From: Methylobacterium sp. 17Sr1-1
GTDB lineage: Bacteria > Pseudomonadota > Alphaproteobacteria > Rhizobiales > Beijerinckiaceae
Assembly (NCBI RefSeq): GCF_003173775.1
Contig: NZ_CP029552.1
Coordinates: 3,210,001 to 3,274,000 of the forward strand
Length of the DNA stretch: 64,000 bases
Reading direction: 5' to 3'
The stretch's first letter is position 1. Every line of letters starts with the position of its first letter. Below are positions 39,729 through 63,868 of this stretch, in pieces. The position numbers were made by a program, and so were the translations under genes. The notes below the pieces were generated by a model that searched no databases, had not been told where the DNA came from, and saw only the letters and a program-made list of their open reading frames with translations.

Positions 39729-41534
39729 TCACCGGACCGACGCCATCGCGACACCGCTGCCCCCCTCGCCCACCCGCGCGATCTCCCACGGCGGTGCGAT
39801 CTCCTCGCGCGTCGCGCAGAGGCCCGCCCGGACCATCGCCCGTCCCACCTCCGGCGCCGCCGTGAGGACGCAGAACGGCACCGCGAGCAGGCTGCCGAGG
39901 GTGAGCGGCAGGCTCCAGGCGAGGAGCGCCGGGGAGACGACGGCCAGCGCCCCGCACACCACGATCCCGAACAGGGTGACGCCGCCCAGGGCGCGGAAAG
40001 CCTCGCCCCAGCGCACGCCCCGCGCATCCCGGTCCTGCGCGCTCCACAATCCGGTCCGGCCGAGGGCGAGCCCGATCATCACCCCGGTGAGCCGGACCGA
40101 CGAGGCGCCGAGCAAGAGGAACGAGGCCGCGATCTCCGCCACCATCCCGGCGAGGAAGCGCATTCCCCCGCCATGGGCCGCCCGGGCCTCGCGGTCCGCC
40201 AGCACGGCGGCGTAGCCGGCGAGCTTCGGGGCGAGCGAGAGGAGGAGCCAGACGAGGTAGAGCGAAGCGGCGCCCGTCGCCGGGCCCCCTTGCGTGGCGG
40301 CGCGCCAGGGCAGGAGCAGGAGGGCGAGCGTCAGGGCCGGCGGGGTGAGGAACATCATCACCGCCCAGGCGAGCTGGAACCGGCTCATCGGCAGGAGGCC
40401 CGGGAGACGGGGCAGGCGCAGGTACTGGAGGTTGCCGCGGCACCAGCGGGCGTCGCGGGTGAGGTGGTCGAGGAGCGTCGGCGGGTTGTCCTCGAAGCTG
40501 CCCTCCTCGAGCGGCAGCACCCGGACCTCGTAGCCGGCCCGGCGCATCAGCACCGCCTCGACCTGGTCGTGCGACAGGACCGCCCCGCCGCCGCGTAAAC
40601 CCGGCAGCCGGCAATGGGCCGCGAAGGGGGCGATGCGCACCAGCGCGTTGTGGCCCCAGAACGGGCCGCATTCCGCCCCCCACCAGGCAGCTCCCAGCGT
40701 GTAGGGCAGCATGCCGTGGCGCATGCCGAACTGAAACAGCCGGGCAAAGGCGCTGCCCGCCGGTGCCCCGACCGCCAGGCTCTGCAGGATGCCGAGGCGC
40801 GGATGCGCCTGCATGATCCGCACGAGGCGCAGGATCGCCGGTCCGGTCATCAGGCTGTCGGCGTCGAGGGGCAGCATCAGGTCGGCGTCGCTGCGGGCGC
40901 AGAATTCCTGCAGGTTGCCGGCCTTGTAGCCGGCATTGTCGGTGCGCCGGCGGTAGTGGATCCGGGCCGCCTCCCCGTCGGGCAGCCCGGCGCGCCAGCC
41001 CGCGACCCACGCCTCCTCGGCCCGGATCACCGCCGGTTCGTCGCTGTCGCTGAGCACGTGATAATGGAAGGCATTGCCGTGGCCGGTGCGCTCCAGGCTC
41101 TCGCGCACCAGGGCGAGGCGTGCCAGGGCCCGGGCCGGGTCCTCGTTGCGCAGGGTCATGACCACGGCGGTCGTGAGATGGGGCGGGACCTGCCCCTCCC
41201 CCACCGCGGCCTGCGGCGCGGCGGCCATGAGCCCGACGCGGCCGGCCCGCAGGAGCAGGAAGCCGATCGCGGCGTTCCAGAATCCCAGCACCGTCCAGGG
41301 CAGGGTGGCGAGGCCGCAGGCGAGGAGCGCGAGGTCGAGGGCGTCGACCCCGTCCTGCGCCAGCACCGCCGCGAGGGCCGCCGCGAGGCTGAAGGTGGTC
41401 GCGAGGACGAGTCCGAGCACCAGCCACCGCCGGCGACGCAGGGCGATGCAGGCTTGCAGGCCCGTCGGCGTCGTGAGAGGAGCGCGGGACGCTCCCTCCG
41501 CGAGGGTGACCACCGAGGAGTCGGTTTGCGGCAT
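39729..41534 (-). CDS. mdoH: Membrane glucosyltransferase, OpgH/MdoH-like
   Basis: 601 aa, shorter than E. coli OpgH (847). N-terminal TM pair (~35-55, 65-90), GT2 core with VVMTLRNEDPARALARLA, HVLSDSDEP (first Asp pair), MLPLDADSLMTG (DxD), VLSHDQVEAVLMRRAGYE and the RDARWCRGNLQY (Q/RxxRW-type) loop, then about six C-terminal TM segments. Makes the linear backbone of osmoregulated periplasmic glucans. No opgG partner is in the window. Confidence 0.9.
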   Translation of the reverse strand: MPQTDSSVVTLAEGASRAPLTTPTGLQACIALRRRRWLVLGLVLATTFSLAAALAAVLAQDGVDALDLALLACGLATLPWTVLGFWNAAIGFLLLRAGRVGLMAAAPQAAVGEGQVPPHLTTAVVMTLRNEDPARALARLALVRESLERTGHGNAFHYHVLSDSDEPAVIRAEEAWVAGWRAGLPDGEAARIHYRRRTDNAGYKAGNLQEFCARSDADLMLPLDADSLMTGPAILRLVRIMQAHPRLGILQSLAVGAPAGSAFARLFQFGMRHGMLPYTLGAAWWGAECGPFWGHNALVRIAPFAAHCRLPGLRGGGAVLSHDQVEAVLMRRAGYEVRVLPLEEGSFEDNPPTLLDHLTRDARWCRGNLQYLRLPRLPGLLPMSRFQLAWAVMMFLTPPALTLALLLLPWRAATQGGPATGAASLYLVWLLLSLAPKLAGYAAVLADREARAAHGGGMRFLAGMVAEIAASFLLLGASSVRLTGVMIGLALGRTGLWSAQDRDARGVRWGEAFRALGGVTLFGIVVCGALAVVSPALLAWSLPLTLGSLLAVPFCVLTAAPEVGRAMVRAGLCATREEIAPPWEIARVGEGGSGVAMASVR

Positions 41535-41567: not shown

Positions 41568-42509
41568 GTGCGGGCGCTCTGGTATAGCGCAGCCGGCCAG
41601 GCGGAGCTGCGGCAAGAACGCCTGTCCCCACCGGGCGAGGGCGAGGTGCGGGCGCGCACCCTGTGGACGGCCCTGAGCCGGGGCACCGAGCGGCTGGTCT
41701 TCGAGGGCCGCGTTCCGGAGGCGGTGGCCGGGCGGATGCGGGCGCCGGCGCAAGAGGGCGAGTTCCCGTTCCCGGTCAAGTACGGCTACTGCGCGGTGGC
41801 CGAGACGGACGCCGGCGAGCGCGTCTTCGCGCTCCAGCCGCACCAGGAGGCGTTCAACGCCCCCCGGGTCGCCCTCTGCCCGCTGCCGAAGGGCCTGCCG
41901 CCCCGTCGCGCCGTGCTCGCCGCCAACATGGAGACGGCGCTCAACGCCGTGTGGGAGTCCGGCGCCGGGCCGGGGGACCGGATCGCGGTGGTGGGCGGCG
42001 GCGTGGTCGGGCTCCTCGTCGCCCATCTCTGCGCCGGACTGCCGGGCGCGGACATCTGCCTGATCGACCGCGCGCCGGCCCGGGCGGCGACGGCGCGGGC
42101 CTTGGGCCTCGCCTTCGCGCTGCCGGAGGCGGCGCCTCGAGAGGCCGACATCGTCTTCCACGCCAGCGCCAGCGAGGCCGGGCTGGCGCTCGCCCTGTCG
42201 CTCGCCGGCGAGGAGGCGGGAATCGTCGAGCTGAGCTGGTACGGCGAGAGCATGGTCGCCGCCCCCCTCGGCCTCGCCTTCCACGCGAAGCGCCTGCGCC
42301 TCGTCGCCAGCCAGGTCGGGGCGGTGGCGGCCTCGCGCCGCCCGCGCTGGAGCCACCGGCGGCGCCTCCTCAAGGCCCTCGACCTGCTGCGCGACGACCG
42401 CCTCGACGCCCTCGTCACCGAGGAGGTCGCCTTCGACGATCTGCCCGCCGAACTGCCGCGCCTGCTCGCCCCCGGCGCGCCGGGCCTGTGCACCGTGATC
42501 CGCTACTGA
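41568..42509 (+). CDS. MDR-superfamily (zinc-type) dehydrogenase
   Basis: 313 aa from the GTG at 41568. N-terminal GroES-like part (RARTLWTALSRGTERLVFEG, YGYCAVAETDAGERVFALQPH), then Rossmann VVGGGVVGLLVAHLCAGLPG and LIDRAPARAATARALG. The structural zinc Cys cluster of classical ADHs is missing. First gene of a four-gene operon with a PTPS homologue, a GT4 and a methyltransferase. Divergent from opgH-like gene with only 33 bases between starts. Confidence 0.82.
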   Translation: MRALWYSAAGQAELRQERLSPPGEGEVRARTLWTALSRGTERLVFEGRVPEAVAGRMRAPAQEGEFPFPVKYGYCAVAETDAGERVFALQPHQEAFNAPRVALCPLPKGLPPRRAVLAANMETALNAVWESGAGPGDRIAVVGGGVVGLLVAHLCAGLPGADICLIDRAPARAATARALGLAFALPEAAPREADIVFHASASEAGLALALSLAGEEAGIVELSWYGESMVAAPLGLAFHAKRLRLVASQVGAVAASRRPRWSHRRRLLKALDLLRDDRLDALVTEEVAFDDLPAELPRLLAPGAPGLCTVIRY

Positions 42510-42520
42510 CAGGAGCCCGC

Positions 42521-42922
42521 ATGTACGCCGTCGAGGTCCGCGACCACGTGATGATCGCCCACAGCTTCCGGGGCGAGCTGTTCGGGCCGGCGCAAGCCCT
42601 GCACGGCGCGACCTTCGTGGTCGACGTGGCGTTCTTCCGCGAGAGCCTGACCCCGGACGGGGTGGTGGTCGATATCGGCCGGGCGAGCGAGGCGCTGAAG
42701 ACGATCCTGGCGCCGCTCAACTACCGCAACCTCGACGACCTGCCGGAATTCTCCGGAGAGAACACCACCACCGAGTTCCTGTGCGGCCACATCCACCGGG
42801 CGATGGCCGCCGCGACGCGAGCCGGCGCCCTCGGCTCCGGCGGCGAGGGGGTGAGCCGCCTGCGCGTGACCCTGCACGAATCCCACCTGGCCCGGGCCTG
42901 GTTCGAGGCGCCGCTCGCCTGA
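42521..42922 (+). CDS. 6-pyruvoyltetrahydropterin synthase/QueD homologue with altered active site
   Basis: 133 aa T-fold protein. The first Zn His is kept (IAHSF, His14), but the usual CxxxHGH becomes AQALHGAT: His28 is present, the second ligand is Ala30 and the catalytic Cys position is Ala24. The later Asp and Glu-Asn-Thr segment (GENTTTEFLCGHIH) and terminal LHES are present. It therefore probably does not do the standard PTPS or CPH4 reaction as such. 11 bases after the MDR gene, with AGGAG; its stop overlaps the GT4 start. Confidence 0.82.
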   Translation: MYAVEVRDHVMIAHSFRGELFGPAQALHGATFVVDVAFFRESLTPDGVVVDIGRASEALKTILAPLNYRNLDDLPEFSGENTTTEFLCGHIHRAMAAATRAGALGSGGEGVSRLRVTLHESHLARAWFEAPLA

Positions 42923-43977
42923 TGCGTCTGGTTCTCGCCGTCCCGGGCGACCTGTCGGCGCCGACCGGCGGCTACGCCTATGCCCGCCAGCTCCTGGCGC
43001 ACCTGCCGGCGCAAGGGGTGGCGGCGACGCATCTCGCCCTGCCGGGCGGGTTCCCGGATCCAGGCCCGGACGACCTCGCCGGCACCGCCGCCCTCCTGGC
43101 GCAGGTGCCGAGAGACGCCGCGCTCCTCGTCGACGGCCTCGCCTACGGGGCCCTGCCGCCGGAGGTGATCCGCGCCGCCGGACGCCCGGTGGCGGCTCTG
43201 GTGCATCACCCTCTCGGCTACGAGACCGGCCTGTCGCCGGAGCGGGCGGCGGCGCTGGTCGCGGGCGAGCGCGGGGCTCTGGCGCTCGCGTCCCGCATCG
43301 TGACGACGAGCCGCTACACCGCCCGGCTGCTCGCGGCCGAGTTCGGCGTGGCGCCGGAGCGGATCGCCGTCGCGGAGCCCGGCACGCCCCCCGCCGCCCG
43401 GGTCGTGCCGCGGCCCGGCCCGCCGGTCCGGCTCCTCTCGGTCGGGACCGTCTCCCCGCGCAAGGGCTACGACGTCCTGGTGCGGGCGCTCGCGACGCTC
43501 ACCGACCTCGACTGGTCGCTGACGGTCGCCGGCAGCCTCGACCGGGCACCGGATTGCGCCGCGTCCCTCCGCGACCAGATCGCCGCATCCGGCCTCGATT
43601 CCCGCATCGCGCTGGCCGGCGCGGTGACGCCGGGGACGCTCGAGCGGCTCTATGCCGAGGCCGACCTCGCGGTCTCGGCCTCGCTGTTCGAGGGCTACGG
43701 CATGGCGCTCGCGGAAGCCCTCGCCCGCGGGCTGCCCCTCGTCGCCACCTCCGGCGGTGCGGCCGCCGAGACGGTGCCGGCGGGCGCCGGCCGCGCGGTG
43801 CCGCCCGGCGACGCCCCCGCCCTCGCCGGCGCCTTGCGCGCGCTCATGGCCGATCCGGCCCGCCGCGCCGAGGCCGCCGCCGCGTCCTGGGCCGCCGGCC
43901 GGCGCCTGCCGGACTGGCCCGATACCGCGGCGGCGGTCGCCGCGGCCCTGAGAGACCCGACCCCGAGGACAGCATGA
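42922..43977 (+). CDS. Glycosyltransferase family 4 protein
   Basis: 351 aa GT-B fold. N-terminal acceptor half (VLAVPGDLSAPTGGYAYARQ), then the donor half with LLSVGTVSPRKGYDVLVRAL and the EX7E motif SLFEGYGMALAEALARGLPL. The start codon overlaps the stop of the PTPS homologue (TGATG), and its own stop overlaps the methyltransferase start (ATGA). Sugar donor and acceptor are unknown; the operon suggests a small-molecule acceptor, possibly a pterin (inference). Confidence 0.9.
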   Translation: MRLVLAVPGDLSAPTGGYAYARQLLAHLPAQGVAATHLALPGGFPDPGPDDLAGTAALLAQVPRDAALLVDGLAYGALPPEVIRAAGRPVAALVHHPLGYETGLSPERAAALVAGERGALALASRIVTTSRYTARLLAAEFGVAPERIAVAEPGTPPAARVVPRPGPPVRLLSVGTVSPRKGYDVLVRALATLTDLDWSLTVAGSLDRAPDCAASLRDQIAASGLDSRIALAGAVTPGTLERLYAEADLAVSASLFEGYGMALAEALARGLPLVATSGGAAAETVPAGAGRAVPPGDAPALAGALRALMADPARRAEAAAASWAAGRRLPDWPDTAAAVAAALRDPTPRTA

Positions 43978-44831
43978 GCGGCTTCAGCCCCGACTGGCTC
44001 GCCCTGCGCGAGCCCGCCGACCGCGCCGCCCGCGACGCGGGCCTCGTCGCCGCCCTCGCGCGGGTGCTGCCGAAGTCGATGCGGGCGGTCGATCTCGGCT
44101 GCGGCACCGGCTCGAACCTGCGGGCGCTGGCGCCGCATCTGGGCTCCCGGCAGGCCTGGCTCCTCGTCGACCACGATCCCGCCCTGCTCTCCGCCGCGGC
44201 CGAGCGCCTGTCGGCCTGGGCGGAGCGGGCGGAGGAAACCGGGGACGGCCTGGTCCTGCATCGCGGCGGTCAGCGGATCGCCGTGCGCTTGCGCGCCCTC
44301 GACCTCGCGACCGACCCGGCGGCGGCCCTCGCGGAGGGGCCGGACCTCGTCACCGCGGCGGCCCTGTTCGATCTCGCCTCGGAGGCCTGGATCGCCGAGG
44401 TCGCGCGCGCGGTCGTCGGGGCCTGCGCCGTGTTCTACACCGCCCTCACCTATGACGGGCAGGAAAGCTGGACCCCGCCGCACCCGGCCGATGCCGCGAT
44501 CCATGCCGCGTTCCTCGCCCATCAGGCCGGCGACAAGGGCTTCGGGCCCGCCGCCGGCCCCGGCGCGACGGTGGCGCTCGCCACGGCCTTCCGGCACCAC
44601 GGCTACGCCGTTTCGACCGCCGCGAGCCCCTGGCGCCTCGGCACGGGCGAGGCCGCGCTGCTGCAGGATCTCGCCGCGGGCGCGGCGCGGGCGGCGGCGG
44701 AGACCGGGAGGGTGTGTGCGGCGGACGCGGCGGAGTGGGCGGCGGCCAGGCGGCGGCCCGGCACCAGAGCGGAGATCGGGCACCGGGATCTTCTGGCGCT
44801 ACCCGACACCGGCGGGCCTGAGCGCGGGTGA
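43974..44831 (+). CDS. Class I SAM-dependent methyltransferase
   Basis: 285 aa. AdoMet motif I is AVDLGCGTGSNLRALAPHL (~residues 37-55), with LLVDHDPALLSAA as the acidic strand-2 loop and DLVTAAALFDLAS as motif II. ATGA overlap with the GT4 gene. The last gene of the operon; GC content drops soon after its end. The C-terminal 60 residues are Ala/Arg-rich, typical of this GC-rich genome. Confidence 0.88.
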   Translation: MSGFSPDWLALREPADRAARDAGLVAALARVLPKSMRAVDLGCGTGSNLRALAPHLGSRQAWLLVDHDPALLSAAAERLSAWAERAEETGDGLVLHRGGQRIAVRLRALDLATDPAAALAEGPDLVTAAALFDLASEAWIAEVARAVVGACAVFYTALTYDGQESWTPPHPADAAIHAAFLAHQAGDKGFGPAAGPGATVALATAFRHHGYAVSTAASPWRLGTGEAALLQDLAAGAARAAAETGRVCAADAAEWAAARRRPGTRAEIGHRDLLALPDTGGPERG

Positions 44832-45448
44832 GCAGGCAGCGCCTGTGGTGAGGGCCGACGCGGGGCCGGCGAGTACGCTCGACCCGGCCCCGAGCGACGT
44901 GGAGCTGCCCGAGGATGAGAGCGGATTTGGATCGTGTCTGGTCGGGAGATGGTTTCCGACGAAGCAACGCGGCGGCCGTTCTCATCGACGATCCGCTCGC
45001 TAGCCTTGTGGTGAGACGCCCTGCTGGGCCTTCGATACATCTGGCACCGTCCCAGGGGGCTAGCATCGGCGCACCCCGCAGGCACATCACCGGCGAGCGG
45101 TTGCGCAGGATCGAGTTCGCCACGATCGCGTCGAGGCGTCGAGGGTCGGTCAGGTTCGGATCGTCCGGACTCTGCTCACCCTAGAGCGAGCTTTACCGCG
45201 CAGCAGCGAACCCAGTTCTTAAGCTCAGCACAGTCCTTAGCACTCCTAGCGCCTGTATGCGGCGGCGACTGAGGGTCCATTGGGCTGCTTCGTTATGCGC
45301 GCGCTTCGGCTGACGGCATTTTGGGTTCGTTCTGCCAAAACCCATCCCCCGCTTTTTTTGGAAGCTTGCCCGCGTTTGTGGTGCAGCGGAGCGGTGGGTC
45401 ACGGGGCCGCGCTGAGCGGGCGGCTAGCCCCCTCGTGATCAGGCTTGC
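44832..45448. other. Gap without recognised genes
   Basis: About 600 bases after the operon. No ORF with family features is seen on either strand. The GC content falls progressively. The stretch may hold remnants of a lost gene but I see no specific signal. Confidence 0.5.
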
Positions 45449-45588
45449 CTAGTCGGGCTTGGCCTGCTTGCGGCGCTTCTTGCGGTCACCGGAGGGCGGC
45501 TTGGTGAAGGTGCGCGAGGTCTTCTTCGGGCGTTGCAGCCGCAGCACCAGCTCGATCAGCTCCTCCTTAATCGAATGCTCAAGATCAC
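45449..45588 (-). pseudogene. IS66-type transposase N-terminal remnant
   Basis: The minus-strand frame ending at 45449 reads EELIELVLRLQRPKKTSRTF then TKPPSGDRKKRRKQAKPD and stop. The RxxKTSxTSSKPPSxDRK pattern is that of IS66-like transposases or their leader region. Only ~45 residues remain; upstream the frame is lost. Confidence 0.55.
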
Positions 45589-45955
45589 AGCGGCCCACTC
45601 ACGAGTTAGTCAGCGAAATCAGCTCTCGGCAAGAGGTACAGTGAGCACTCTGCATCGACGCCCCGCTGTCGTTACGCTGCGGCCGAGCGTACCCCATAAG
45701 TATTTATGAAATACCGACACAGGTTGTGATCCCAGCCATCGTCGATTGGTACGACAAATGCCTTAATTAATAGAATTCATGCGTCGAGGTATTGACGGAT
45801 TTTCAGTCGTCTGGCCAGCAGATTGCAAATTTATGTCTCCATTTTATTTAATATTAGCAGAAATAATATATAAAAATTCCTTTCCCAGCCTTGATTTCAT
45901 ATCCAAATCAAAAAGTATTTTATATAAAAATATATTGATTGATTCGATATCGAAA
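45589..45955. other. AT-rich gap without recognised genes
   Basis: This stretch is much richer in A/T than the rest, with runs such as AATATTAGCAGAAATAATAT. Short ORFs exist, but no family or ribosome-site support was found. Confidence 0.5.
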
Positions 45956-46198
45956 TTAAATGCGTTTTGAGCCCAATCGAAGGCCGGGGCCTCCACAATT
46001 TTCAGGTATGAAGTTGATACCTTGGCGCTCAAGTGCTAATTGTATTGCAGATATGGTTGAGCTATGCGCATTAAGACTGCCAGGTTTAGCTTCTAGCCGC
46101 TTGATGGTTGGGAGTGAGACTCCCGATGCCTCAGCCAAATCTTTCTGTTCCCACCGGATCAAAGCTCGCGCCGCTTTCACCAACTCGCTCGTCAACAT
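45956..46198 (-). CDS. Xre-type helix-turn-helix regulator
   Basis: 80 aa. LVKAARALIRWEQKDLAEAS, GVSLPTIKRLEA is a Cro/CI-like helix-turn-helix; the C-terminal part (HSSTISAIQLALERQGINFI) is the usual short dimerisation tail of this small alphaproteobacterial family. ATG 46198 is used; a farther ATG at 46249 lies inside the operator region and is less likely. No good ribosome site is seen. It faces a 36-aa gene across two palindromes and probably represses both. Confidence 0.85.
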   Translation of the reverse strand: MLTSELVKAARALIRWEQKDLAEASGVSLPTIKRLEAKPGSLNAHSSTISAIQLALERQGINFIPENCGGPGLRLGSKRI

Positions 46199-46230
46199 GC
46201 TTAGGAGATCCGCGATCCAGGGCCAAAACG

Positions 46231-46279
46231 ATACCTGAGGTATTGACATGGCCCGCCATCATAATGATACTCAGGGTAT
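46231..46279 (+). promoter_or_regulatory. Promoter with two overlapping palindromic operators
   Basis: Palindromes ATACCTGAGGTAT (46231-46243) and ATACTCAGGGTAT (46267-46279) are 36 bases apart centre to centre. A near-consensus promoter reads through them: TTGACA at 46243-46248, 17-base spacer, GATACT at 46266-46271. The -35 touches the first palindrome and the -10 lies in the second, so a bound Xre dimer would block RNA polymerase. The promoter points to the 36-aa gene. Confidence 0.75.
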
Positions 46280-46297
46280 CAGACACCGAGGAAGCCT

Positions 46298-46408
46298 ATG
46301 TATCAAGTCCGTCTTGTACCGAATCCGGCAGCAATAGGCGATATTGTCGCGAACCACATCACCTGCCGTCCGGGTAGCTGTGCGGCGAGCTGCCCCTACG
46401 AGGCTTAG
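46298..46408 (+). CDS. 36-aa cysteine-rich mini-protein
   Basis: Reads MYQVRLVPNPAAIGDIVANH then ITCRPGSCAASCPYEA and stop (three Cys as CRPGSCAASC). ATG 46298 follows GAGGAAG at ideal spacing, and a strong promoter lies 20 bases upstream. The Cys spacing suggests a metal site or disulfide. No family recognised. Divergent from the Xre gene, which likely controls it. Confidence 0.65.
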   Translation: MYQVRLVPNPAAIGDIVANHITCRPGSCAASCPYEA

Positions 46409-46870
46409 CCTAAGGTTGCATTTGAGCGTCCCCGCGCTTCGGCTGCCTCAGAACTCCACATTAGCAGTGGTTGGTACTATCACCGCGTGGGTGTCATGTT
46501 GGCTATTGCCGCGGCCATAGCGCACCGCGCGGGAATGAGACAATTGTGGAGCTCCGGCTTATCTGTTGTGCTCGCCAAAAATAATTTGACTGACACGCTC
46601 GATCTCTAGGTTGTTAGGCACTGGCTGATTTCTACGCGGCTCCGATCCATTTTCGCTGACTTCCAGAAATTCAGATTGATAAGTTTAAATCGATATCATT
46701 CCAAATTTGTCCTAATAAATGATTGCAGCACGCTGCGGCACAAACTTTTATGTTAATCGCCAGAGCTTCGGTACGACTACTTGTCTCACGTGCGGCGCGC
46801 GGAAATACTCCCAATACCGCGCCAGCAACCATCGATAATCTCCCTTGTTCTCTAACATGCGGCCATCCCA
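46409..46870. other. Gap without recognised genes
   Basis: About 460 bases of mixed composition between the mini-protein and the HNH operon. No ORF with family features or clear RNA gene was recognised. Confidence 0.5.
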
Positions 46871-47107
46871 ATGCCGAAGAAACCACAGCGATCCCGCGCG
46901 GCCGACTTTGCACGCCCAACCATCGCCAGTCTCGGCCTTCGCGTGACCCTCGTTCCCCACGAGGATGACACGGAGTTGCGCGCCCTCATCGAGCGCTACG
47001 AGCGGCTCACTGCCGAATGGGAGGCCCTCTCTCACCGCGCGCTCACGCTTATAGCCCGACGCTCCCGCGCTTCCGCCGAGGCCTACAATGCCGTTCATCG
47101 CTCCTAA
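46871..47107 (+). CDS. Small hypothetical protein upstream of HNH gene
   Basis: 78 aa. Basic N-terminus (MPKKPQRSRAADFARP), then an amphipathic helix-rich part (ELRALIERYERLTAEWEALS). It overlaps the start of the HNH-fusion gene by 20 bases, suggesting co-translation. No family recognised. Confidence 0.55.
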   Translation: MPKKPQRSRAADFARPTIASLGLRVTLVPHEDDTELRALIERYERLTAEWEALSHRALTLIARRSRASAEAYNAVHRS

Positions 47108-48257
47108 GGACGTTGGCACCACGCCTCGCCGCTCCCTCTCCGCCCACCGCCGCCTCCAGGCCTGGGAGAGAACCAAGGGCGTCTGCGTCATCTGTGAGAC
47201 ACCCATCGACGGCGTCCGCGAGCGCTGGATCGTCGAGCACATACGAGCCCTAGAACTCGGTGGAGCCGACGATTTGGAAAACATGGGACCTGCGCACGAG
47301 GGCTGCGCGCGCGCCAAAACGCGTGATGATCACGCATTCACAGCGCGCGCCAAACGGCAGAAGATTCTGCACCTTGGCGCAGCCACCACGTCCCATCCTC
47401 TCCCCGGCTCACGTGGCAGCCCTCTCAAGAGAAAGATTAATGGCCAAGTGGTGTTGCGCGCTGAGTCGATGAGCAGGTTGGCACTCGCGGAGTTGGCGGC
47501 ACCCGTTTCTTCCTCTCAGCCTCTTGAAGAACGAGCATCGAAATTGCATTGTCCGCCCAGAGATGGCACGCCGCCAGGCATTCACTGTATGGCGAATTCT
47601 GAATCAATGCGCAAACCTACTGGTCCGGACGGCTCGCATCCGCGAAGCGTCAAAGCTGCGCCTAAATCAGCAGCGTTACGCATTCCTGCATCGCACGTAG
47701 TTCTCGCTGGCGAAGAGGCTGCACAGTACGAGAAACTCCACGCTGACATCGCTAGCGCGGTTGGTCCAACAGACATCATTGAGGAGTTTTGGGTTCGGGA
47801 CGTCGCGGACCTTGTCTGGGAGACATTACGCCTCCGCCGTCTTCGAGGCGCACTCCTGCAAGTGGCAATGCGCAACGGCCTTGAGCGCGTACTGCCCTTG
47901 CTTGTTGAAGCGAGCTTTGCAGAACGACTCGCAGAGGATTGGTTCAGAGGGGAGAACCAGGCGAACGCAGCAGTTGATACCCTCCTGGCCGACGCAGCCC
48001 TCTCATTCGATACCGTTAAGGCTGAGGCACTGGCCGCTCGTCTCGACGATTTCGAACGCTTCGACCGGCTTATCGCCAACGCCGAAGCACGTCGTAATGC
48101 AATTCTGCGCGAGGTCGACCGCCACCGTGAGGCGCTGGCCGTCCGGCTTGCCCGCATCGGAGAAACGATCATCGAGGCAGAATTCACCGACGTGAATCCT
48201 CAAACTCCGAATGTATCCCCGTCCGCTTCTGGCCAACCTTATGCCAAGCGCCCGTAG
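47088..48257 (+). CDS. HNH endonuclease fused to a helical hypothetical domain
   Basis: 389 aa. Residues ~1-125: HNH nuclease with GVCVICETPIDGVRERWIVE, HIRALELGGADDLENMGPAH and EGCARAKTRDDH, ending in a PGSRGSPLKRKINGQVV tail as in stand-alone HNH proteins. Residues ~185-380 are a separate hypothetical family (VGPTDIIEEFWVRDVADLVW, ARLDDFERFDRLIANAEARR). The ~60-residue link between them is low complexity. Two normally separate genes therefore appear joined, perhaps by loss of a stop. The end overlaps the next gene. Confidence 0.7.
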   Translation: MPFIAPKDVGTTPRRSLSAHRRLQAWERTKGVCVICETPIDGVRERWIVEHIRALELGGADDLENMGPAHEGCARAKTRDDHAFTARAKRQKILHLGAATTSHPLPGSRGSPLKRKINGQVVLRAESMSRLALAELAAPVSSSQPLEERASKLHCPPRDGTPPGIHCMANSESMRKPTGPDGSHPRSVKAAPKSAALRIPASHVVLAGEEAAQYEKLHADIASAVGPTDIIEEFWVRDVADLVWETLRLRRLRGALLQVAMRNGLERVLPLLVEASFAERLAEDWFRGENQANAAVDTLLADAALSFDTVKAEALAARLDDFERFDRLIANAEARRNAILREVDRHREALAVRLARIGETIIEAEFTDVNPQTPNVSPSASGQPYAKRP

Positions 48258-48801
48258 AGTTGCAGCGAACCGTGACAACGCGCAACGTAGCACTGGCCCT
48301 CGCTCTGCTAAGGGAAAAGCTACATCATCCCGGAACGCGGAGCGGCATGGCCTCGCGATTCCAATAATGGCGGACCCCTCGTTCAGCGCGCAGGCCCAAG
48401 CGTTGGCGCAGCAGATCCTGACGAGCTTGAGCGGCATTGAGGATCTCAATCTCGTCCTGCGCGTGGCCGAAGCGCAAATTGATCTTGAGCGCGTTCGGCA
48501 CGCGCGCCACCGGCTGATTGCTCAGGCACACGCGGAACCATCGGTCGGCAGGGCAAGGGGGTTGCCACATAATGACAAGCACATCACGAGTCTGCTGCCA
48601 GCAAACATCAGAAATCTTCAATCATATTTAGGCTCTCCCAATGTAGATGCTCGATTAACTGTTAAACCTGATCGCGAGGCGCAGATACTAGTGCAGTTCG
48701 CCCGCGATCTCACAGCACTTGATCGCTACGAGCGAAGTGCCTTGTCTCGGCGCAAATCCGCAATCCGTATTCTTGATAAAAGCCGAAGCGGATGTGGGTA
48801 G
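48241..48801 (+). CDS. Hypothetical protein with NRxNAxxSTGP motif
   Basis: 186 aa from ATG 48241 (an upstream in-frame ATG exists at 48211). RRVAANRDNAQRSTGPRSAK, GKATSSRNAERHGL is a widespread motif of unknown function found in proteins often associated with IS or plasmid regions. The middle forms helices (LRVAEAQIDLERVRHARHRL). Overlaps the HNH-fusion gene by 17 bases, so the two are coupled. Confidence 0.7.
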   Translation: MPSARRVAANRDNAQRSTGPRSAKGKATSSRNAERHGLAIPIMADPSFSAQAQALAQQILTSLSGIEDLNLVLRVAEAQIDLERVRHARHRLIAQAHAEPSVGRARGLPHNDKHITSLLPANIRNLQSYLGSPNVDARLTVKPDREAQILVQFARDLTALDRYERSALSRRKSAIRILDKSRSGCG

Positions 48802-48946
48802 GCCGAACATGCGCCTGCGGCAGTCATGACTCGGTAATCACCTACAACCATGGTGCGGCTAGTGATCTGAGTTAGAAGTCTGTTTGCAGAAGCGGGTGAA
48901 CCGCCCCGGGTTTCCCGGAAGCTCCAACTTCTGAGAGGAAGGAGCC

Positions 48947-49261
48947 ATAACGAAGCGAACAGCCCCGTTTTCCCCTGAGGTGCGCGAGCGTGCCGTGCGG
49001 ATGGTGCGCGAGCACGGCTCGCAATGCTCAGCGATCCAGTCGTTTGCTGCCAAGATCGGCTGCTCGGGTGAGACGCTGAGGAACTGGGTGCGCCAGTCCG
49101 AGCGTGATCAAGGTGTGCGGCCCGGCCAGACAACGGACGAGCGTTAGCGGATCAAGGCGCTGGAGCGCGAGGTTCGCGAGCTGCGCCAAGCCAACGAGAT
49201 CCTGCGCAAGGCGTCGGCGTATTTTGCCATGGCAGAACGGGACCGCCGGTCGCGGCCATGA
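48947..49261 (+). pseudogene. IS3 orfA (element A), start lost and amber stop
   Basis: Reads TKRTAPFSPEVRERAVRMVR, REHGSQCSAIQSFAAKIGCS, then TDER and an amber TAG at 49145-49147, then [19 protein letters not shown]. The codon after GGAGCC is ATA where ATG is expected, so the start is also lost. The stop TGA overlaps orfB start as usual for this family. Confidence 0.8.
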
Positions 49262-50523
49262 TCAGCTTCATCGACGAATACCGGGAGGTCTACGAGGTCG
49301 AGCCGATCTGCGGGGTGCTGCCGATCGCCCCGTCGCCCTACTACGTGCATGCCGCCCGGCGTGCCGATCCCGAGAAGCAACTGGTTCGTGCTCACAGCGA
49401 CGCTGCGTTGATGATCGAGATCCAGCGCGTGTTCGAGGCCAACTTCTGCGTCTACGGCGTGCGGAAGGTGTGGCGGCAACTGGCCCGGGAGGGGATCGTG
49501 ACCGCTCGATGCACGGTGGCGCGGCTGATGCGCCGACTGGGCTTGGCGGGGGTGGTGCGTGGCAGGAGCGTGCGCACCACGATCCCCGACCCGGCCGCAG
49601 CTTGCCCCCTCAACCGGGTCAATCGACAGTTCAAGGCTCCCCGGCCGAACGCCCTGTGGGTCAGCGACTTCATCTACGTAGCGACGTGGTCGGGCTTCGT
49701 CTATGTGGCCTTCGTCATCGATGTGTTCGCCCGGCGCATCGTGGGCTGGCGGGCCTCACGTCGTGCTCACGCGAGCTTCGTGCTGGATGCTCTGGAGCAG
49801 GCGCTGCACGAGCGTCGTCCTGTGCAAGGCAGCGGGCTGGTGCATCACTCGGACCGCGGCTCGCAAGGTGGATTCAAGTGATCGTCGCAACGGCTTAGCG
49901 GAGGGCATTTGTGATGGCAGGTCGGCGGCGTTCGGATCGGTGTCTTCGAGAGAAGCTTCGGTCACCGGGTCGTCCCGGGGTCGGTTTGCGCGCCACTCGG
50001 CGGGAGTTCTGGGCGATCATCGCGGACGGGGTGTCGAGCGAGGACGCAGCCATGAAGGTCGGGATCTCGCCGTCGGTTGGCTCGCGGTGGTTCCGGATGG
50101 CGGGCGCGGGATGGCGCCCAGCCACCTGTCGCCATCATCCAAGCCACTGTCGACCCACTTCCTGTCGATGGCCGAGAGGGAGGAGATCGCGCTGCTGCGA
50201 GCCCAGGGGCATGGGGTTCGGGGAGTGGCTCGGCATCTGGGACGTGCAGCATCGACCATCTCTCGAGAGTTGCGGCGCAATGCAGCGACCCGCAATGGCG
50301 GCCTGGACTATCGCGCCACGACCGCGCAGTGGCACGCTGAACGCGCGGCACGCCGGCCCAAGCCAGCGAAGCTTGCTGAGAACGTGGTACTGCGGACGTA
50401 TGTCCAGGAACGGCTCGCCGGTGCTGTCGCCACGCCGGGCGGGACCACCCTGCCTGGGACGAGCGTCACCTGGAAGGGGCGGCGACACGGACGGCGCCAG
50501 AGCCGGCGCTGGGGGCGATCCTA

Positions 50524-51651
50524 GTGCACTGACGCATTCGAAAGGTTCACACCAGGCGTGAGGCGTGCGAGTCTGCGGCATGGCTCAGACCGTCTGCGTA
50601 ATCCTCACTGAGGACGAAAAGGCACGGCTGCGCGCGATCAGCCAGGATCGTGCTCGCCCGCTCAAGCACGTCCAGCGCGCCCGCATCGTCCTGCTCTCCG
50701 CCGAGCGCCTTCCCGTGCTTGAAGTCGCCCACCAGGCCGGCGTCAGCCGAACCGCCGTCTGGCGCTGGCAACAGCGCTTCGCGGAAGAGGGGGTCGACGG
50801 CCTGCTGCGCGACAAGACCCGCCCGCCCGGCAAGCCGCCCCACTCCACCAGCACCGTCGCCGAGGTGCTGGCGCTGACCTGCTCCGAGCCGCCGGGTGAG
50901 GTCACTCATTGGACCGGTCGCGCGGTTGCTGCCGCGACCGGCATCTCGCTGCGCTCGGTCCAGCGCATCTGGCAGGAACACCGCCTGCAGCCGCACCGCG
51001 TGCGCACCTTCAAGCGCTCCACTGACCCGGCCTTCGCCGAGAAGGTGGAAGACATCGTCGGCCTCTACATGGACCCGCCTCGTCACGCGGTGGTGCTGTC
51101 GGTCGACGAGAAGAGCCAGATCCAGGCCCTGGAGCGCACCCGGCCCGACCGTCCGCTCGCGTCAGGACGCCCGGCGACCCGCACTCACGACTACATCCGC
51201 CACGGCACCACGACGCTGTTTGCAGCGCTGAACGTGCTGGAGGGCACGGTGATCGGCCGCTGCATGCAGCGCCACCGCCACGAGGAGTTCCTGCGCTTCC
51301 TCAACGCCGTCGAGGCGGCGGTGCCGGCCGGCAAGATCATCCACGTGGTGCTCGACAACTACCGCACCCACACCCATGCGAAGGTCCGGGCCTGGCTGTC
51401 GCGTCATCCGCGCTGGGTGTTCCACTTCACCCCGACCTCCGCGTCTTGGCTCAACGCCGTCGAGGGCTTCTTCTCGGCGCTGTCGCGTCGGCGACTGCGA
51501 CGCGGCACGTTCACCGGAATCGTCGACCTGCAGGCGGCGATCAAGCGCTACATTGCCGAACACAACGAGCGGCCCAGGCCCTTCATCTGGACCAAGCCGG
51601 CCGCCGCCATCCTCAACAGCCAGGCTGCACCTTCCGTCTGAGTCAGTGCAC
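50524..51651 (+). mobile_element. IS630-family element (A), complete
   Basis: 1128 bp with terminal inverted repeat GTGCACTGAC, flanked by the TA dinucleotide duplication typical of IS630 (50522-50523 and 51652-51653). Inserted inside the IS30 transposase. The only intact member of the nest and therefore the youngest. Confidence 0.88.
50580..51641 (+). CDS. IS630-family transposase
   Basis: 353 aa. N-terminal HTH (ISQDRARPLKHVQRARIVLL, VSRTAVWRWQQRFAEEGVDG), catalytic core AVVLSVDEKSQIQALERTRP (first Asp), IIHVVLDNYRTHTHAKVRAW (second Asp) and FTPTSASWLNAVEGFFSALS with the final Glu. Intact; stop is 10 bases inside the element end. Confidence 0.93.
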   Translation: MAQTVCVILTEDEKARLRAISQDRARPLKHVQRARIVLLSAERLPVLEVAHQAGVSRTAVWRWQQRFAEEGVDGLLRDKTRPPGKPPHSTSTVAEVLALTCSEPPGEVTHWTGRAVAAATGISLRSVQRIWQEHRLQPHRVRTFKRSTDPAFAEKVEDIVGLYMDPPRHAVVLSVDEKSQIQALERTRPDRPLASGRPATRTHDYIRHGTTTLFAALNVLEGTVIGRCMQRHRHEEFLRFLNAVEAAVPAGKIIHVVLDNYRTHTHAKVRAWLSRHPRWVFHFTPTSASWLNAVEGFFSALSRRRLRRGTFTGIVDLQAAIKRYIAEHNERPRPFIWTKPAAAILNSQAAPSV

Positions 51652-52788
51652 TAGAGCCCGCAGCAGATCGCCGAGCGTTTGCGGCTCGACTTCCCGGGCG
51701 ATACGATGATGCACATCAGTCACGAGGCGATCTACCAGGCGCTCTACGTCCAGGTCCGGGGCGCGCTGAAGCGTGAGTTGATCGCGTGTCTTCGCACAGG
51801 ACGGGCTTTGCGGTTGCCGCGGGCCCGCAGCCTGGGCCGAGGCAAGTCGTTCGTCACTCCCGAGGTGCTGATCAGCGAGCGTCCGCCCAAGGTGGAGGAT
51901 CGCGCGGTGCCAGGTCACTGGGAGGGCGATCTGATCCTGGGTCTGAAGAGTTCGGCGATCGGGACCCTGGTCGAGCGCACGACACGCTTCACGATGCTGC
52001 TGCATCTTCCGCCGATGGACGGTCATGGGGTGACGCCGCGCGCGAAGAACGGGCCGGCTTGGCTGGGCATGGGGCCGAAGCGGTCCGCAAGGCGATCGCC
52101 GGTACGATTGCGAGCTTGCCGGAGCACCTGCGACGCTCGTTGACCTGGGACCAGGGAACGGAGATGGCCGAGCATGCGCGCTTACGGATCGATACAGGTC
52201 TGCAGGTGTACTTCTGCGATCCGCGCTCATCCTGGCAGCGGGACACGAACGAGAACACGAATGGACTACTACGGCAGTACTTTCCGAAGGGAACGGATCT
52301 GAGCAAGCATAGTGCGAATGATCTTGCTGCTGTAGCCACCGTCCTGAACAGCAGGCGCCGCAAGACGCTGAACTGGAAGATGCCGGCAGAGGCACTCGAC
52401 GCTGTGCTGGCTGCCATGCAAGATGGTGTTGCGACGACCGCTTGAACCCAAGCAATACTTGGCTTTGCGCTACACCGAGCGCCTGGCTGGAGCCGGCATC
52501 GAGCCGTCGGTCGGCAGCGTCGGCGACAGCTACGACAACGCCTTGGCGGAGACGATCAACGGCTTGTTCAAGGCGGAGGTGATCCACCGACGCGGGCCGT
52601 GGCGCTCCTTCGAGGCGGTCGAGTACGCCACCCTGGAATGGGTCGACTGGTACAACCACCTTCGCCTCCTCGCGCCCATCGGCAACGTCCCTCCCGCCGA
52701 GGCTGAAGCGCGCTATTATGCCCATGGCGGCGACCAAGCCTTGGCCGCATGACCCAAGACAAACAGCCTCCGAGAAAACCGGGGCGGC

Positions 52789-53045
52789 CTCCTGCAGGAT
52801 CAGCTTGTCGAGTGTGTGGTCCGCGATCGCCTTGCGCAGCCGCTGGTTCTCGGTCTCCAGCTCCTTCATCCGGCGCACCTGGTCGGACTTCAGCCCACCG
52901 AACTCCTTGCGCCAGCGGTAATACGTGACCTCGGTCACGCCGATACCCCGGATCGCGTCAGCCACGCTCTGCCCTGTGAGACCAGCACATCCACCTGTCG
53001 CAGCTTGGCAACAAACTCTTCCGGCTGGTGCTTCTTGGTTCCCAT
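52789..53045 (-). pseudogene. IS3 orfA remnant (element B)
   Basis: Starts MGTKKHQPEEFVAKLRQVDV LVSQG, then a frameshift near 52975, then ADAIRGIGVTEVTYYRWRKE, FGGLKSDQVRRMKELETENQ, and ends LDKLILQEA where element A abuts. The rest of orfA and all of orfB are gone. Confidence 0.8.
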
Positions 53046-53141
53046 CGGGTCCGTCCTCCGTCGTGGTCCTGACCCACGAAACTGGTCCGGGCCGAGTGCA
53101 AGATTTTCGGGCATCCTGACCCCTGAAGGAGGGTGGATGCC

Positions 53142-53405
53142 ATGCCTCGCAAACGCTTCACGAACGAACAAATCGCCTTCGCCCTGAGACAGGCGGAGAA
53201 CGGCAGCACGGTGGACGAGGTCTGCCGAAAGATGGGCGTGTCTGAGCCAACCTTTTACCGGTGGAAGAAGCAGTTCGTCGGCATGGGCGTGCCGGAGATC
53301 CGACGCCTGAAGCAATTAGAGGACGATAACAGCAAGCTCAAACGCTTGGTCGCCGACCTGACGCCGGATCGCTCGATGCTGGAGGACGTGCTCAAGCGAA
53401 AGTGA
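53142..53405 (+). CDS. IS3 orfA (element C)
   Basis: 87 aa from ATG 53142: PRKRFTNEQIAFALRQAENG, EVCRKMGVSEPTFYRWKKQF (HTH), then a leucine-zipper-like EIRRLKQLEDDNSKLKRLVA. ATG follows AAGGAGGG. Its end overlaps orfB by a few bases, as needed for programmed frameshifting to OrfAB. Confidence 0.88.
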   Translation: MPRKRFTNEQIAFALRQAENGSTVDEVCRKMGVSEPTFYRWKKQFVGMGVPEIRRLKQLEDDNSKLKRLVADLTPDRSMLEDVLKRK

Positions 53406-54244
53406 TGAGGCCCGCCGTTAGGCGTGAGGTCGCCGGTCACCTGCAGGTGACCTACGGCATCAGCGAGCGGCGGGCCTGCCAGGCCACCGGCTTCGGCCGT
53501 TCGTCCCAGCGCTACCGGACGCGCACGGACCCACAGGTGGCGTTGCGCATGAGGCTCAAGGAGTTAGCGGCTGCGCGGGTCCGCTACGGCTACCGGCGAC
53601 TGCACGTCCTATTGCGGCGGGAGGGTTTAATCGTGAACCACAAGCGCACCTACCGGCTCTACCGGGACGAGGGGCTGTCGATCTGGCCCAAGCTGCCCAA
53701 GCGCAAGCGAGCTTGGCGCTACCGGCAAGGGCGGCCCGCGATCGACAGTCCCAACGAGGTCTGGGCGATGGACTTCATGTCCGACGGCCTCTTCGACGGA
53801 CGTCCGTTCCGGATCCTGACGGTCGTAGACTGCCGCACGCGAGAGGCGCTCTCGCTGGCACCGAGAACCACCTTCCGCGCCTTCCAGGTGGTGGAGGTTC
53901 TCGACGCACTGATCCGGCTCCGCGGGAGACCCAAAAGCCTGCGGGTGGACAATGGGCCGGAATTTGCCGGTCGTATGCTGGATCACTGGGCTTACCTCAA
54001 TGGGGTGGAGCTCGACTTCTCTCGTCCGGGAAAACCGACCGACAATGCCTACATCGAGGCCTTCAACGGCCGCTTACGAGCAGAGTGTCTAAACGCGTCG
54101 TGGTTCTTGTCGCTCGCTGATGCCCGAGCGCGCATCGAGGAATGGAGGTGCCACTACAACGAAGACCGACCTCACACGGCCCTGGGCGGCTTGACGCCTC
54201 GAGCCTTCGCCAACCAAGCTGTCACAGCCCGAGAACTTGCATAG
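53402..54244 (+). CDS. IS3 orfB transposase (element C)
   Basis: 280 aa from GTG 53402 (ATG at 53405). N-terminal HTH_21 part RYGYRRLHVLLRREGLIVNH; DDE core EVWAMDFMSDGLFDGRPFRI (Asp), LRVDNGPEFAGRMLDHWAYL (Asp) and KPTDNAYIEAFNGRLRAECL (Glu). Intact IS407-type OrfB. Confidence 0.92.
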   Translation: MMRPAVRREVAGHLQVTYGISERRACQATGFGRSSQRYRTRTDPQVALRMRLKELAAARVRYGYRRLHVLLRREGLIVNHKRTYRLYRDEGLSIWPKLPKRKRAWRYRQGRPAIDSPNEVWAMDFMSDGLFDGRPFRILTVVDCRTREALSLAPRTTFRAFQVVEVLDALIRLRGRPKSLRVDNGPEFAGRMLDHWAYLNGVELDFSRPGKPTDNAYIEAFNGRLRAECLNASWFLSLADARARIEEWRCHYNEDRPHTALGGLTPRAFANQAVTARELA

Positions 54245-54279
54245 GCCCCGGACCACAAACTAGGGCAAGACCAGTCGGC

Positions 54280-54630
54280 TCAGAGCCATACTTCAGGGCG
54301 GACCACTCGGATGGGGGCTGACCAGAAGCCCGGGTCGATGAGGTCGAAGCCCAGGAGGTACTTCCAGTCGATGCGGCCACGCGCCGCTTCGGCCGCACGG
54401 CGGTCCGAGAGGTTCTCGGCGAACTGCAACAAGGTAACGAGCGCCAGCCGCCAGGGTGCCTCGGCCGGGCGGCCACGGGAGGAGAACAATGCCGTGAACT
54501 GCGCGTCGGTGAACACGGTGCCGAGTTCATCCCTCAGCCGCATGTAAGCATTGCCTCGCGGGAACGCGGCTCGGGCCACGGCGGCGGTCTGGCGGGGAAC
54601 CTCGGCGGGCGAGCTTGGCTGCAGCGACAT
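54280..54630 (-). pseudogene. IS1182-like transposase N-terminal fragment
   Basis: ATG 54630, AAVARAAFPRGNAYMRLRDE, LGTVFTDAQFTALFSSRGRP, AENLSDRRAAEAARGRIDWK, YLLGFDLIDPGF are the conserved N-terminal domain of IS1182-type transposases. After DPGF the sequence diverges and stops; ~350 residues incl. the DDE core are missing. Truncated probably by element C or a deletion. Confidence 0.8.
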
Positions 54631-54982
54631 GACGAGCCTCGGCGAGCGTTGGATTGCGCTTTCACATCAACGAGCTAACCAAGCAGACGGATTCGCAAGC
54701 AGTATCAGAAACGGGGCAATCCCAGTCGGCGTGCTACGGCGCCGATCGCCGAGGGGGCGGCTCACCCTCGGTGACGATGAATAGCCCCCTGCACCTCAGA
54801 CCACGTCCGCCGCCGGCCGGCTTCGGTGAACAGCTCCACGCGCCTGCCGGCTTTGACATAGCCATACGCTTTGCCATAGACCAAGGATGGAGCTCCCTGA
54901 AATAACTGGCGGCGCGTGGACCGCAACCCCGGCTGCGGAGCGATGATAGCGGCCGGCTACGGGGGGACACTGTCGGTCTCCC
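54631..54982. other. Gap without recognised genes (IS debris likely)
   Basis: About 350 bases between the IS1182-like fragment and glmS. GC-rich patches alternate with mixed sequence; no reading frame with family features seen. It must contain the glmS transcription end; no clear terminator hairpin was found. Confidence 0.45.
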
Positions 54983-56809
<1,827 letters not shown>

Positions 56810-56869
56810 GTGCAGCACCCAAGTGACAGAAGTTGATTTGACCTAACTATTATGCGTTCTCGCCGTGAA

Positions 56870-57853: not shown

Positions 57854-58170
57854 TATCTAATCCTCATCATTTCTCTACTGGTTAGGACCTAGATCTTAGA
57901 ATGAATATGCGCGAGGTGCGTCGAAAATGAGCACTCAAATCAGGACTATAGTACAGTATTTCAGCAGCCTAACGTTGTGCGCGGTGAGGGCATCGTCGAA
58001 TAGTCTCCAAGCGGCGCCACTAATAGGGTATTAAGATTTCTAAGTCTGTGGCATTTCCGCAACCGTTGAAAGAGAATTTTTTCTGATGAATCAGCTTTGG
58101 GCGACTAGCAGAACGGCACGATCGGGAGGCGTTGGCCTGGGATGGCTCGCCCGCTTCATTCCGACTGATA
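57854..58170. other. Intergenic region upstream of galE
   Basis: About 320 bases with more A/T than usual, between galE start and IS630 element B. It probably contains the galE promoter; no gene is seen. Confidence 0.5.
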
Positions 58171-59348: not shown

Positions 59349-59350
59349 TA

Positions 59351-59672
59351 TGAGTGCGGGCTGCGATTGCTCCGCTTCGTCGCGGGACACTATTTCTACC
59401 GCGAGACACTACCCGCGCTACGAGCGGGGGCCCTCTGCCGTACGACCGAGCCGTCATGGCCAGCACCTTGTCCAAACTGCACTCTGGCATCCGCGGTGCG
59501 ATGCTCCCGGCCAATGCTGGCATGCAGAGTCTTTATCTCTGGACTGTGAACCCTGCGAGTCTGCATAGCCCCTGTAACTTGCGAGCGCCGATGATGCTTG
59601 TCCAGCGAACCACATAATATCGAGCTCACCCCGGCAAAGCCGGGGCTTGCTCGTCAGTAAATATTTATTATT
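59351..59672. other. Gap between IS630 element B and the broken fkbM
   Basis: Mixed-composition DNA with no recognised gene. It ends in a hairpin (59629-59645) that may terminate the polysaccharide operon. Confidence 0.5.
59629..59645 (-). terminator. Hairpin downstream of the fkbM remnant
   Basis: CCCCGGC AAA GCCGGGG, a 7-bp perfect GC stem with a 3-base loop, 28 bases beyond the fkbM stop on the minus strand. No T-run follows, so terminator function is only likely. Confidence 0.45.
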
Positions 59673-61425: not shown

Positions 61426-61428
61426 TTA

Positions 61429-63762: not shown

Positions 63763-63868
63763 TATATTCTCCAAAAAGACGCGATTAGTGCTTGACTTCA
63801 ATTCACAAATAGCTTGTTGACACAACCGCACTCAGATCCAACAGGCGAATATTTATCTGACCTTGATA

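Follow-up and report, generated by a model that had tools for sequence, protein, structure and literature searches.

What can a homologue of 6-pyruvoyltetrahydropterin synthase (PTPS) do once its catalytic cysteine and part of its zinc site have been replaced? The question is raised by four genes of Methylobacterium sp. 17Sr1-1, which lie at positions 41568-44831 of a stretch of 64,000 nucleotides, hereafter the window, corresponding to positions 3210001-3274000 of the single 6.54 Mb source contig (NZ_CP029552.1). Judged by its sequence, the PTPS protein belongs to PTPS-IV, a named subfamily of COG0720, and its altered site is the signature of that subfamily and not a local oddity. The four window genes are only a part, the left half, of a conserved biosynthetic module that centres on PTPS-IV. 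This module probably turns GTP into a methylated, glycosylated pyrimidine or pterin-like small molecule, of which we infer the substrates, the order of steps and the final structure. The four genes are as follows.

41568..42509, forward strand: MDR-type dehydrogenase (GTG start at 41568, TGA at 42507-42509)
42521..42922, forward strand: PTPS-IV (COG0720, FGPAQ signature), a T-fold protein with Ala24, Ala30 and Tyr68 that keeps His14, His28, Glu85 and Glu120 (ATG at 42521, TGA at 42920-42922)
42922..43977, forward strand: GT4 glycosyltransferase with E257-x7-E265 (ATG at 42922, TGA at 43975-43977)
43974..44831, forward strand: class I S-adenosylmethionine (SAM) methyltransferase (MT) with D40-L-G-C-G-T-G (ATG at 43974, TGA at 44829-44831)

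The PTPS homologue belongs to a strictly conserved subfamily

The window PTPS protein matches PF01242 with 72.2 bits and scores 34 bits against the QueD model TIGR03367, the cut-off of which is 89.25. Compared with the QueD of the same genome (L098), it carries Ala24 for Cys24, Ala30 for His30 and Tyr68 for a histidine. We aligned 121 PTPS-IV proteins, from 80 genome loci, 14 plasmid loci, 26 dehydrogenase-anchored loci and the window, with the own-genome QueD as comparison. Ala24 in place of the catalytic Cys and Ala30 in place of a zinc His, both of which had been reported in the initial annotation of this stretch, are found in 121 of 121 sequences, and the loss of His68 can now be added, since this position holds Tyr (109 sequences), Met (5), Phe (4) or Leu (3). 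The zinc site keeps two of its three histidines. His14, His28, Asp51, Glu85 and Glu120 are retained in all 121 sequences, and F21, G22, Q25, G29, T31, N70, D72 and T84 of the former active site are equally invariant. The window protein reads F21-G22-P23-A24-Q25, in which F, G, A and Q occur in every sequence and P in 120. Solitary PTPS-IV genes, with no other cluster genes, were seen on Streptomyces plasmids (L088 9001-9426, which reads FGSAQ, and L102 10001-10399).

Structure prediction yielded a model with a pLDDT of 90, the best structural match of which is PDB 3D7J (TM 0.94, 1.1 Å rmsd, 55% identity); QueD and PTPS structures rank after it at about 20% identity. Sequence search likewise returns 3D7J, which is SCO6650 from Streptomyces coelicolor (E 5.4e-44), a protein that has the same altered motif and differs in its host. 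SCO6650 reportedly contains no zinc and has no PTPS activity, and is said to retain a pterin-like pocket; to our knowledge its function is likewise without assignment. The PTPS fold of the predicted model, together with Glu120 in all 121 sequences, places the window protein in the T-fold superfamily, and we take Glu120 to be the family's anchor for the 2-amino-4-oxo ring. PTPS-IV thus resembles QueD (PTPS-I; E. coli 4NTK and the own-genome enzyme) in its T-fold, its ring-anchoring Glu and two of the three zinc His positions, but differs by the missing catalytic Cys, third zinc His and His68, by an identity of only about 20% to E. coli QueD and by its neighbourhood. Because the altered site is ancient and strictly kept, a non-canonical T-fold role is likely. 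The earlier proposal of a different T-fold reaction therefore holds as regards the site, and the chemistry is conjectural: we infer that PTPS-IV binds the 2-amino-4-oxo ring and performs zinc-free, non-canonical chemistry.

The window protein reads AQALHGA where QueD and other PTPS-I proteins have CxxxHGH. It also departs from the PTPS-II (biopterin) motif CxxxxxHGH, having no Cys and HGA, and from the PTPS-III (folate) motif ExxHGH, having QALHGA, as these motifs are defined in the available text of Zallot et al. 2016 (PMC5041015). In the accessible part of AGeNNT 2017 (PMC5445326), FGPAQ is described as typical ('preferentially') of PTPS-IV (cluster-node 62, 561 sequences), and PF00925 (GTP cyclohydrolase II, GCHII) and PF01872 (RibD_C) are reported near PTPS-IV genes; that part of the source makes no mention of an MDR-GT4-MT operon, a CDP-alcohol phosphatidyltransferase, a creatininase, a cytochrome b561 or a product. 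PTPS homologues that lack the Cys and one His and stand beside unusual genes thus form a subfamily already described and are not a new discovery, and the initial view of a single unusual operon gives way to a named subfamily with a published neighbourhood, so far as that text goes, and a solved member, 3D7J. A protein search returned at least 8000 homologues at E 1e-3, a figure that is not a count of PTPS-IV, and among the best 120 of these 8000 nearly all named ones are called PTPS or 6-carboxytetrahydropterin synthase.

The operon and the dehydrogenase-PTPS pairing are conserved

Direct reading of the window confirmed the four genes and their junctions: the MDR and PTPS genes are separated by an 11-base gap (42510-42520), the PTPS and GT4 genes share a TGATG overlap and the GT4 and MT genes an ATGA overlap. 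The tight coupling that had been deduced from these junctions is borne out by the relatives, most of which conserve the last two. Junctions were tight, meaning that the start overlaps the stop or lies within 15 bases of it, in 121 of 127 PTPS-GT4 and 109 of 112 GT4-MT cases; the MDR-PTPS junction is looser (63 of 119). The script used for these counts chose the downstream start nearest -4 and is biased toward overlaps. All four genes are apparently under purifying selection, with dN/dS of 0.11-0.47 against four relatives (NG86), and the PTPS gene has the lowest value of the four in each comparison. The closest PTPS relatives of the window protein are from Methylobacterium.

When 398 Pseudomonadota genomes were searched with the MDR protein, 33 matched at E 1e-10, and 27 of these, the window's included, hold clear orthologues (E 1e-70 or better). 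An FGPAQ-type PTPS gene stands directly after the MDR gene in all 26 other dehydrogenase-anchored loci. A PTPS with an unaltered site (Cys and all three His) in this type of operon, which the initial annotation had named as evidence that would speak against it, was found in none of the loci examined (0 of the 26 dehydrogenase-anchored ones). Six genomes had weak MDR matches only; at those of the two examined, and at another weak match, the second one in G265, no FGPAQ-type PTPS was seen. Searching 385 alphaproteobacterial genomes with a PTPS profile yielded 45; the class loci covered among these 45 are 20 found by the profile, plus G012, G016, G280 and the window. The 20 loci read have FGPAQ in 19 cases and FGPAR in one. 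On plasmids, 14 of 20 matches were examined. The MDR gene lies directly upstream of PTPS-IV in 18 of the 20 class loci and 12 of the 14 plasmid loci, as well as in 63 of 80 close loci, many of which are cut by contig ends; in six more of the latter it lies 0.9-2.5 kb upstream. In one Hyphomicrobiales locus (L131, G217) the MDR match is broken into two overlapping parts that differ in reading frame, as after a frameshift, and the PTPS, RibD_C and GCHII genes remain.

The four genes are part of a larger module

In the relatives, the order MDR-PTPS-GT4-MT is followed, on the other strand, by a cytochrome b561 and a RibD_C-domain protein, and then by GCHII. The added genes that the initial annotation had suggested looking for do join the cluster, in the form of GCHII and RibD-type genes, so that the four-gene operon is a real unit and yet only a piece of the whole. 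The module was found in Alphaproteobacteria, in other Pseudomonadota and in Actinomycetota, the latter reached only via plasmids; plasmids of Agrobacterium, Streptomyces, Thiodictyon and Microbacterium carry the same module, with most genes present on each. Partners in other Pseudomonadota and Actinomycetota include a CDP-alcohol phosphatidyltransferase, an LPG-synthase-TM protein, a creatininase-family amidohydrolase, and FkbM methyltransferase or sulfatase-like genes. The CDP-alcohol phosphatidyltransferase has an intact CDP-OH-P motif, as that motif is usually defined.

Partners were counted by tblastn at fixed bit thresholds with a limited reference protein set, within the fetched stretches. 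The 26 dehydrogenase-anchored stretches (13-20 kb) contain GT4 in 25, MT in 24, RibD_C in 22, CDP-alcohol phosphatidyltransferase and MdoH in 12 each, GCHII in 11 and creatininase in 6. The 20 PTPS-anchored loci contain MDR in 19, GT4 in 18, MT in 17, RibD_C in 16, GCHII in 8, CDP-alcohol phosphatidyltransferase in 7, creatininase in 6 and MdoH in 5. Counts for the 80 close loci are GT4 78, MT 71, MDR 69, MdoH 63, cytochrome b561 49, RibD_C 40, GCHII 38, YfhO 27 and HGSNAT-type genes 20.

The most compact versions come from three genomes of 1.4-1.6 Mb, where the order is creatininase-MDR-PTPS-GT4-MT-RibD_C-GCHII and the identity to the references is 22-46%. Two of these minimal clusters were read open reading frame (ORF) by ORF; the seven genes are contiguous, with no intervening ORF of at least 110 residues. 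Pfam backs the family of each protein submitted (seven from one minimal genome and three from the other), the MDR matches and one of the two MT matches lying below curated cut-offs. The three minimal clusters showed no phospholipid genes. The seven genes are likely the core of the module.

The RibD_C protein scores with ribosylaminopyrimidine reductases, below their cut-offs. Most cluster GCHII enzymes of Pseudomonadota (for example G000:C1 3310133-3311218) have an N-terminal extension of about 160 residues, which is absent in the Streptomyces ones and gave no Pfam match in the two that were scanned (L061 and L084).

Companion enzymes

The MDR protein is weakly recognised by domain models (PF01266, 29 bits; BchC TIGR01202, 33 bits against a cut-off of 291). 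Its usual annotation is zinc alcohol dehydrogenase, and the Cys and His ligands of the catalytic zinc are missing: a conserved SRGTE replaces the Cys motif of zinc MDR enzymes, and no Cys occurs at positions conserved in at least 95% of 108 sequences. The enzyme is thus apparently zinc-free, a prediction that uses what we take to be the zinc-ligand positions of the MDR family. It keeps the Rossmann GxGxxG and Asp167, which suggests use of NAD(H), an Asp at that Rossmann position being typical of NAD-type enzymes.

The glycosyltransferase matches PF13692 (90 bits) and PF00534 and is a GT4 enzyme; E257 and E265, which form the E-x7-E motif of GT4 glycosyltransferases, are conserved at 95% or more of 115 sequences. 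Its structure matches are mixed, and the cyanobacterial tetrahydrobiopterin glucosyltransferase BGluT (5ZE7) is among them. The likeness to BGluT is that of a GT4-type enzyme acting on a pterin, but BGluT is a weak match (E 8.6e-6), with others ranking above it. The BGluT route begins from GTP cyclohydrolase I (GCH I). The MT matches PF08242 and PF13649, and its SAM motif is conserved among relatives. Structure search with the MT returned generic class I folds only (best 3MGG, query TM 0.61, then 2P35 and others) and therefore gives no hint of the substrate.

Co-distribution and type of GCHII

The GCHII of the window genome scores above the curated cut-off of NF006456. Among Methylobacteriaceae, all 5 genomes that carry the operon have a strong GCHII match (PF00925, E 1e-46 or better, CLTGD...CDC), and none of the 8 that lack it does. 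This co-distribution links the operon to GCHII even where the two lie apart. The eight genomes without the operon (L160-L167; G059, G004, G187, G271, G143, G028, G167 and G151) have weaker main GCHII matches of 82-92 bits. The cysteines are visibly absent in seven of these eight, the eighth (L162) having given no motif match; we take these degenerate domains to be RibBX-like. G167 also has a cysteine-bearing protein, presumably URC1-like, which is present too in some operon genomes, the window's included.

Across the class, a GCHII match was found in 37 of 45 genomes with PTPS-IV versus 125 of 340 without (Fisher 8e-9, uncorrected for kinship), using NF006456 at E 1e-30, a setting at which the model also matches E. 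coli and other controls; 2 of the 385 genomes pass the curated cut-off. This link is weaker because GCHII is widespread, presumably for riboflavin, and a module-specific GCHII across the class was accordingly rejected.

At the position that we take to switch GCHII between the full product (Tyr) and a formyl intermediate (Met120 of SCO6655), Tyr is found in 54 of 56 cluster enzymes and Met in the two from Streptomyces. The two Met-type enzymes are on Streptomyces plasmids (L085 13479-14138, residue 120, and L104 from 13265), with a creatininase gene beside each.

The cluster is split by an island in the window genome

Two further features frame the operon in the window.

39729..41534, reverse strand: MdoH-type membrane glucosyltransferase, divergent neighbour
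44799..64000, no strand: left part of an island of about 54.6 kb, between the operon and the cytochrome b561 and GCHII genes, which lie from G000:C1 3309377 onward, outside the window

The start codons of the MdoH-type gene and the MDR gene are 33 bases apart. Homology to M. tarhaniae (L009) stops at window position 44798 and restarts at G000:C1:3309377. The same two points are 73 bases apart in L009, so that 54,578 bases intervene here; the cytochrome b561 and GCHII genes lie beyond them, GCHII about 55 kb from the operon. At 45 kb the G+C content drops from 0.77 to 0.55. Of the island's ORFs inside the window, ten were scanned: five are of transposase type, one encodes an SIS/GATase protein and one a GT11 glycosyltransferase. 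Further ORFs at the far end of the island are presumably GDP-mannose dehydratase- and GDP-fucose synthase-like. An ALIL pseudoknot (RF01497, 88 bits) at 49216-49332 lies immediately ahead of, and runs into, a transposase ORF (rve, HTH_21; 49258-49881); we read it as the frameshift signal of a transposase of IS3 type. In M. frigidaeris, M. platani and M. nonmethylotrophicum the same site is also interrupted, by insertions of different lengths.

A putative pathway from GTP and its rivals

The kept features of MDR, GT4, MT and the PTPS-IV Glu, together with GCHII and the RibD_C protein, point to a diaminopyrimidine or pterin derived from GTP. GCHII would open GTP to 2,5-diamino-6-ribosylamino-4(3H)-pyrimidinone 5'-phosphate (APy); Streptomyces enzymes of the Met120 type would halt at the formyl intermediate, which the creatininase-family amidohydrolase could deformylate. 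Where present, the RibD_C-type reductase would reduce the ribosyl chain, and the zinc-free, NAD-type MDR enzyme might then oxidise a side-chain hydroxyl. PTPS-IV may hold the 2-amino-4-oxo-pyrimidine or pterin ring via Glu120 for a zinc-independent tautomerisation or ring closure, and the product would be methylated by the MT and glycosylated by GT4. In many genomes the CDP-alcohol phosphatidyltransferase and the LPG-synthase-TM-like protein could serve attachment to, or transfer across, the membrane, with a redox role for cytochrome b561; the phospholipid genes suggest such membrane attachment in many, not all, hosts. The precursor is more likely the diaminopyrimidine made by GCHII than the product of GCH I. 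A fuller version can be imagined, a pterin route independent of GCH I in which RibD_C converts ribosyl to ribityl in the GCHII diaminopyrimidine, MDR oxidises the 2'-hydroxyl and PTPS-IV acts as a zinc-free cyclase to give a dihydroneopterin-like pterin, later methylated, glycosylated and, in many bacteria, a membrane-anchored redox-active lipid or glycoside serviced by cytochrome b561; in this detailed form we hold it to be a long shot. The earlier suggestion of a glycosylated, methylated molecule, possibly a pterin glycoside, is a reasonable guess short of proof. As the initial annotation had supposed, no established product for the cluster was found in the literature searched, most subscription papers being outside its reach.

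Several observations weigh against a GTP-derived product made by the whole module. The MDR gene is missing from 11 of the 80 close loci, eight of which have 1.5-10 kb of upstream DNA covered; it is on the other strand in 1 of the 20 class loci, and 2 of the 14 plasmid PTPS-IV copies stand alone. No GCHII lies within the fetched stretch of 15 of the 26 dehydrogenase-anchored loci, GCHII matches are frequent among Alphaproteobacteria in any case (162 of 385 genomes), and in many genomes GCHII may simply be the riboflavin enzyme. The cluster-type RibD_C is absent from the window genome, in which the only RibD_C match is an ordinary bifunctional RibD, and from the Methylobacterium loci that reach GCHII (L004, L009, L018 and L019). 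A strict pairing of Met120-type GCHII with creatininase was rejected, since creatininase also stands beside Tyr-type GCHII and so does not track the Met120 form.

The replaced residues would also suit a pseudoenzyme, that is, a non-catalytic binding or scaffold protein presenting a pterin or pyrimidine to the neighbouring enzymes, and SCO6650, reported to have neither zinc nor PTPS activity, fits such a role. However, the former active site is as strictly conserved as expected of an active site with new chemistry; binding alone could also explain this, and we regard the pseudoenzyme as rather unlikely. The opposite reading, that of automatic annotation, makes the protein an ordinary QueD or PTPS enzyme serving queuosine or biopterin synthesis and draws on the PF01242 match and the QueD fold. 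It is hardly credible and was rejected on the motif, on the score far under the TIGR03367 cut-off, on the residues missing from all 121 sequences and on the separate QueD of the window genome, which has CHRMHGH and lies beside an ORF that we take to be QueE-like. The genome's own FolE was also located.

Two further readings concern the module as a whole. An F420- or F0-type deazaflavin would agree with the creatininase, RibD_C and GCHII genes, which are reminiscent of the entry to riboflavin and F420 in archaea (37 bits with the ArfB model against 180; 109 with the archaeal reductase model against 186). That entry consists of GCH III, ArfB and the archaeal reductase, and the likeness lies in a cyclohydrolase, a creatininase-family deformylase and a RibD_C-type reductase; the module differs in having GCHII and not GCH III, and in its extra MDR, PTPS-IV, GT4 and MT. 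In the available text of Zallot et al. 2016 (PMC5041015), PTPS-IV is indeed tied to archaeal F420, as unpublished work. However, CofD (PF01933) matches in only 2 of 14 cluster genomes, neither of them the window's, and its model also matches E. coli, so that these two need not be F420 genes; F420 was rejected on this ground and appears very improbable. Alternatively, the locus might mainly serve an envelope polysaccharide (an MdoH-type glucan), with the PTPS gene a passenger, as 63 of the 80 close loci have MdoH next to the operon and YfhO and HGSNAT-type genes recur there. MdoH is less common further away (12 of 26 and 5 of 20 wider loci), whereas MDR is found with PTPS in 26 of 26 and 19 of 20, and the minimal clusters hold GTP-processing genes and not MdoH; a glucan locus is therefore equally improbable. 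A GTP-derived, methylated and glycosylated small molecule is the reading that we prefer.

Significance

The main additions made here are a core of seven genes, accessories linked to lipids, the split of the window genome's copy and the co-distribution with GCHII, which make the product testable. PTPS-IV is the only PTPS match in 7 of 14 genomes, so that an annotated QueD need not mean queuosine synthesis. The three genomes of 1.4-1.6 Mb, which keep little that is unneeded, include the module, and its seven-gene core is directly testable by reconstitution. A conserved GTP-consuming pathway without a known product is a real gap in bacterial metabolism.

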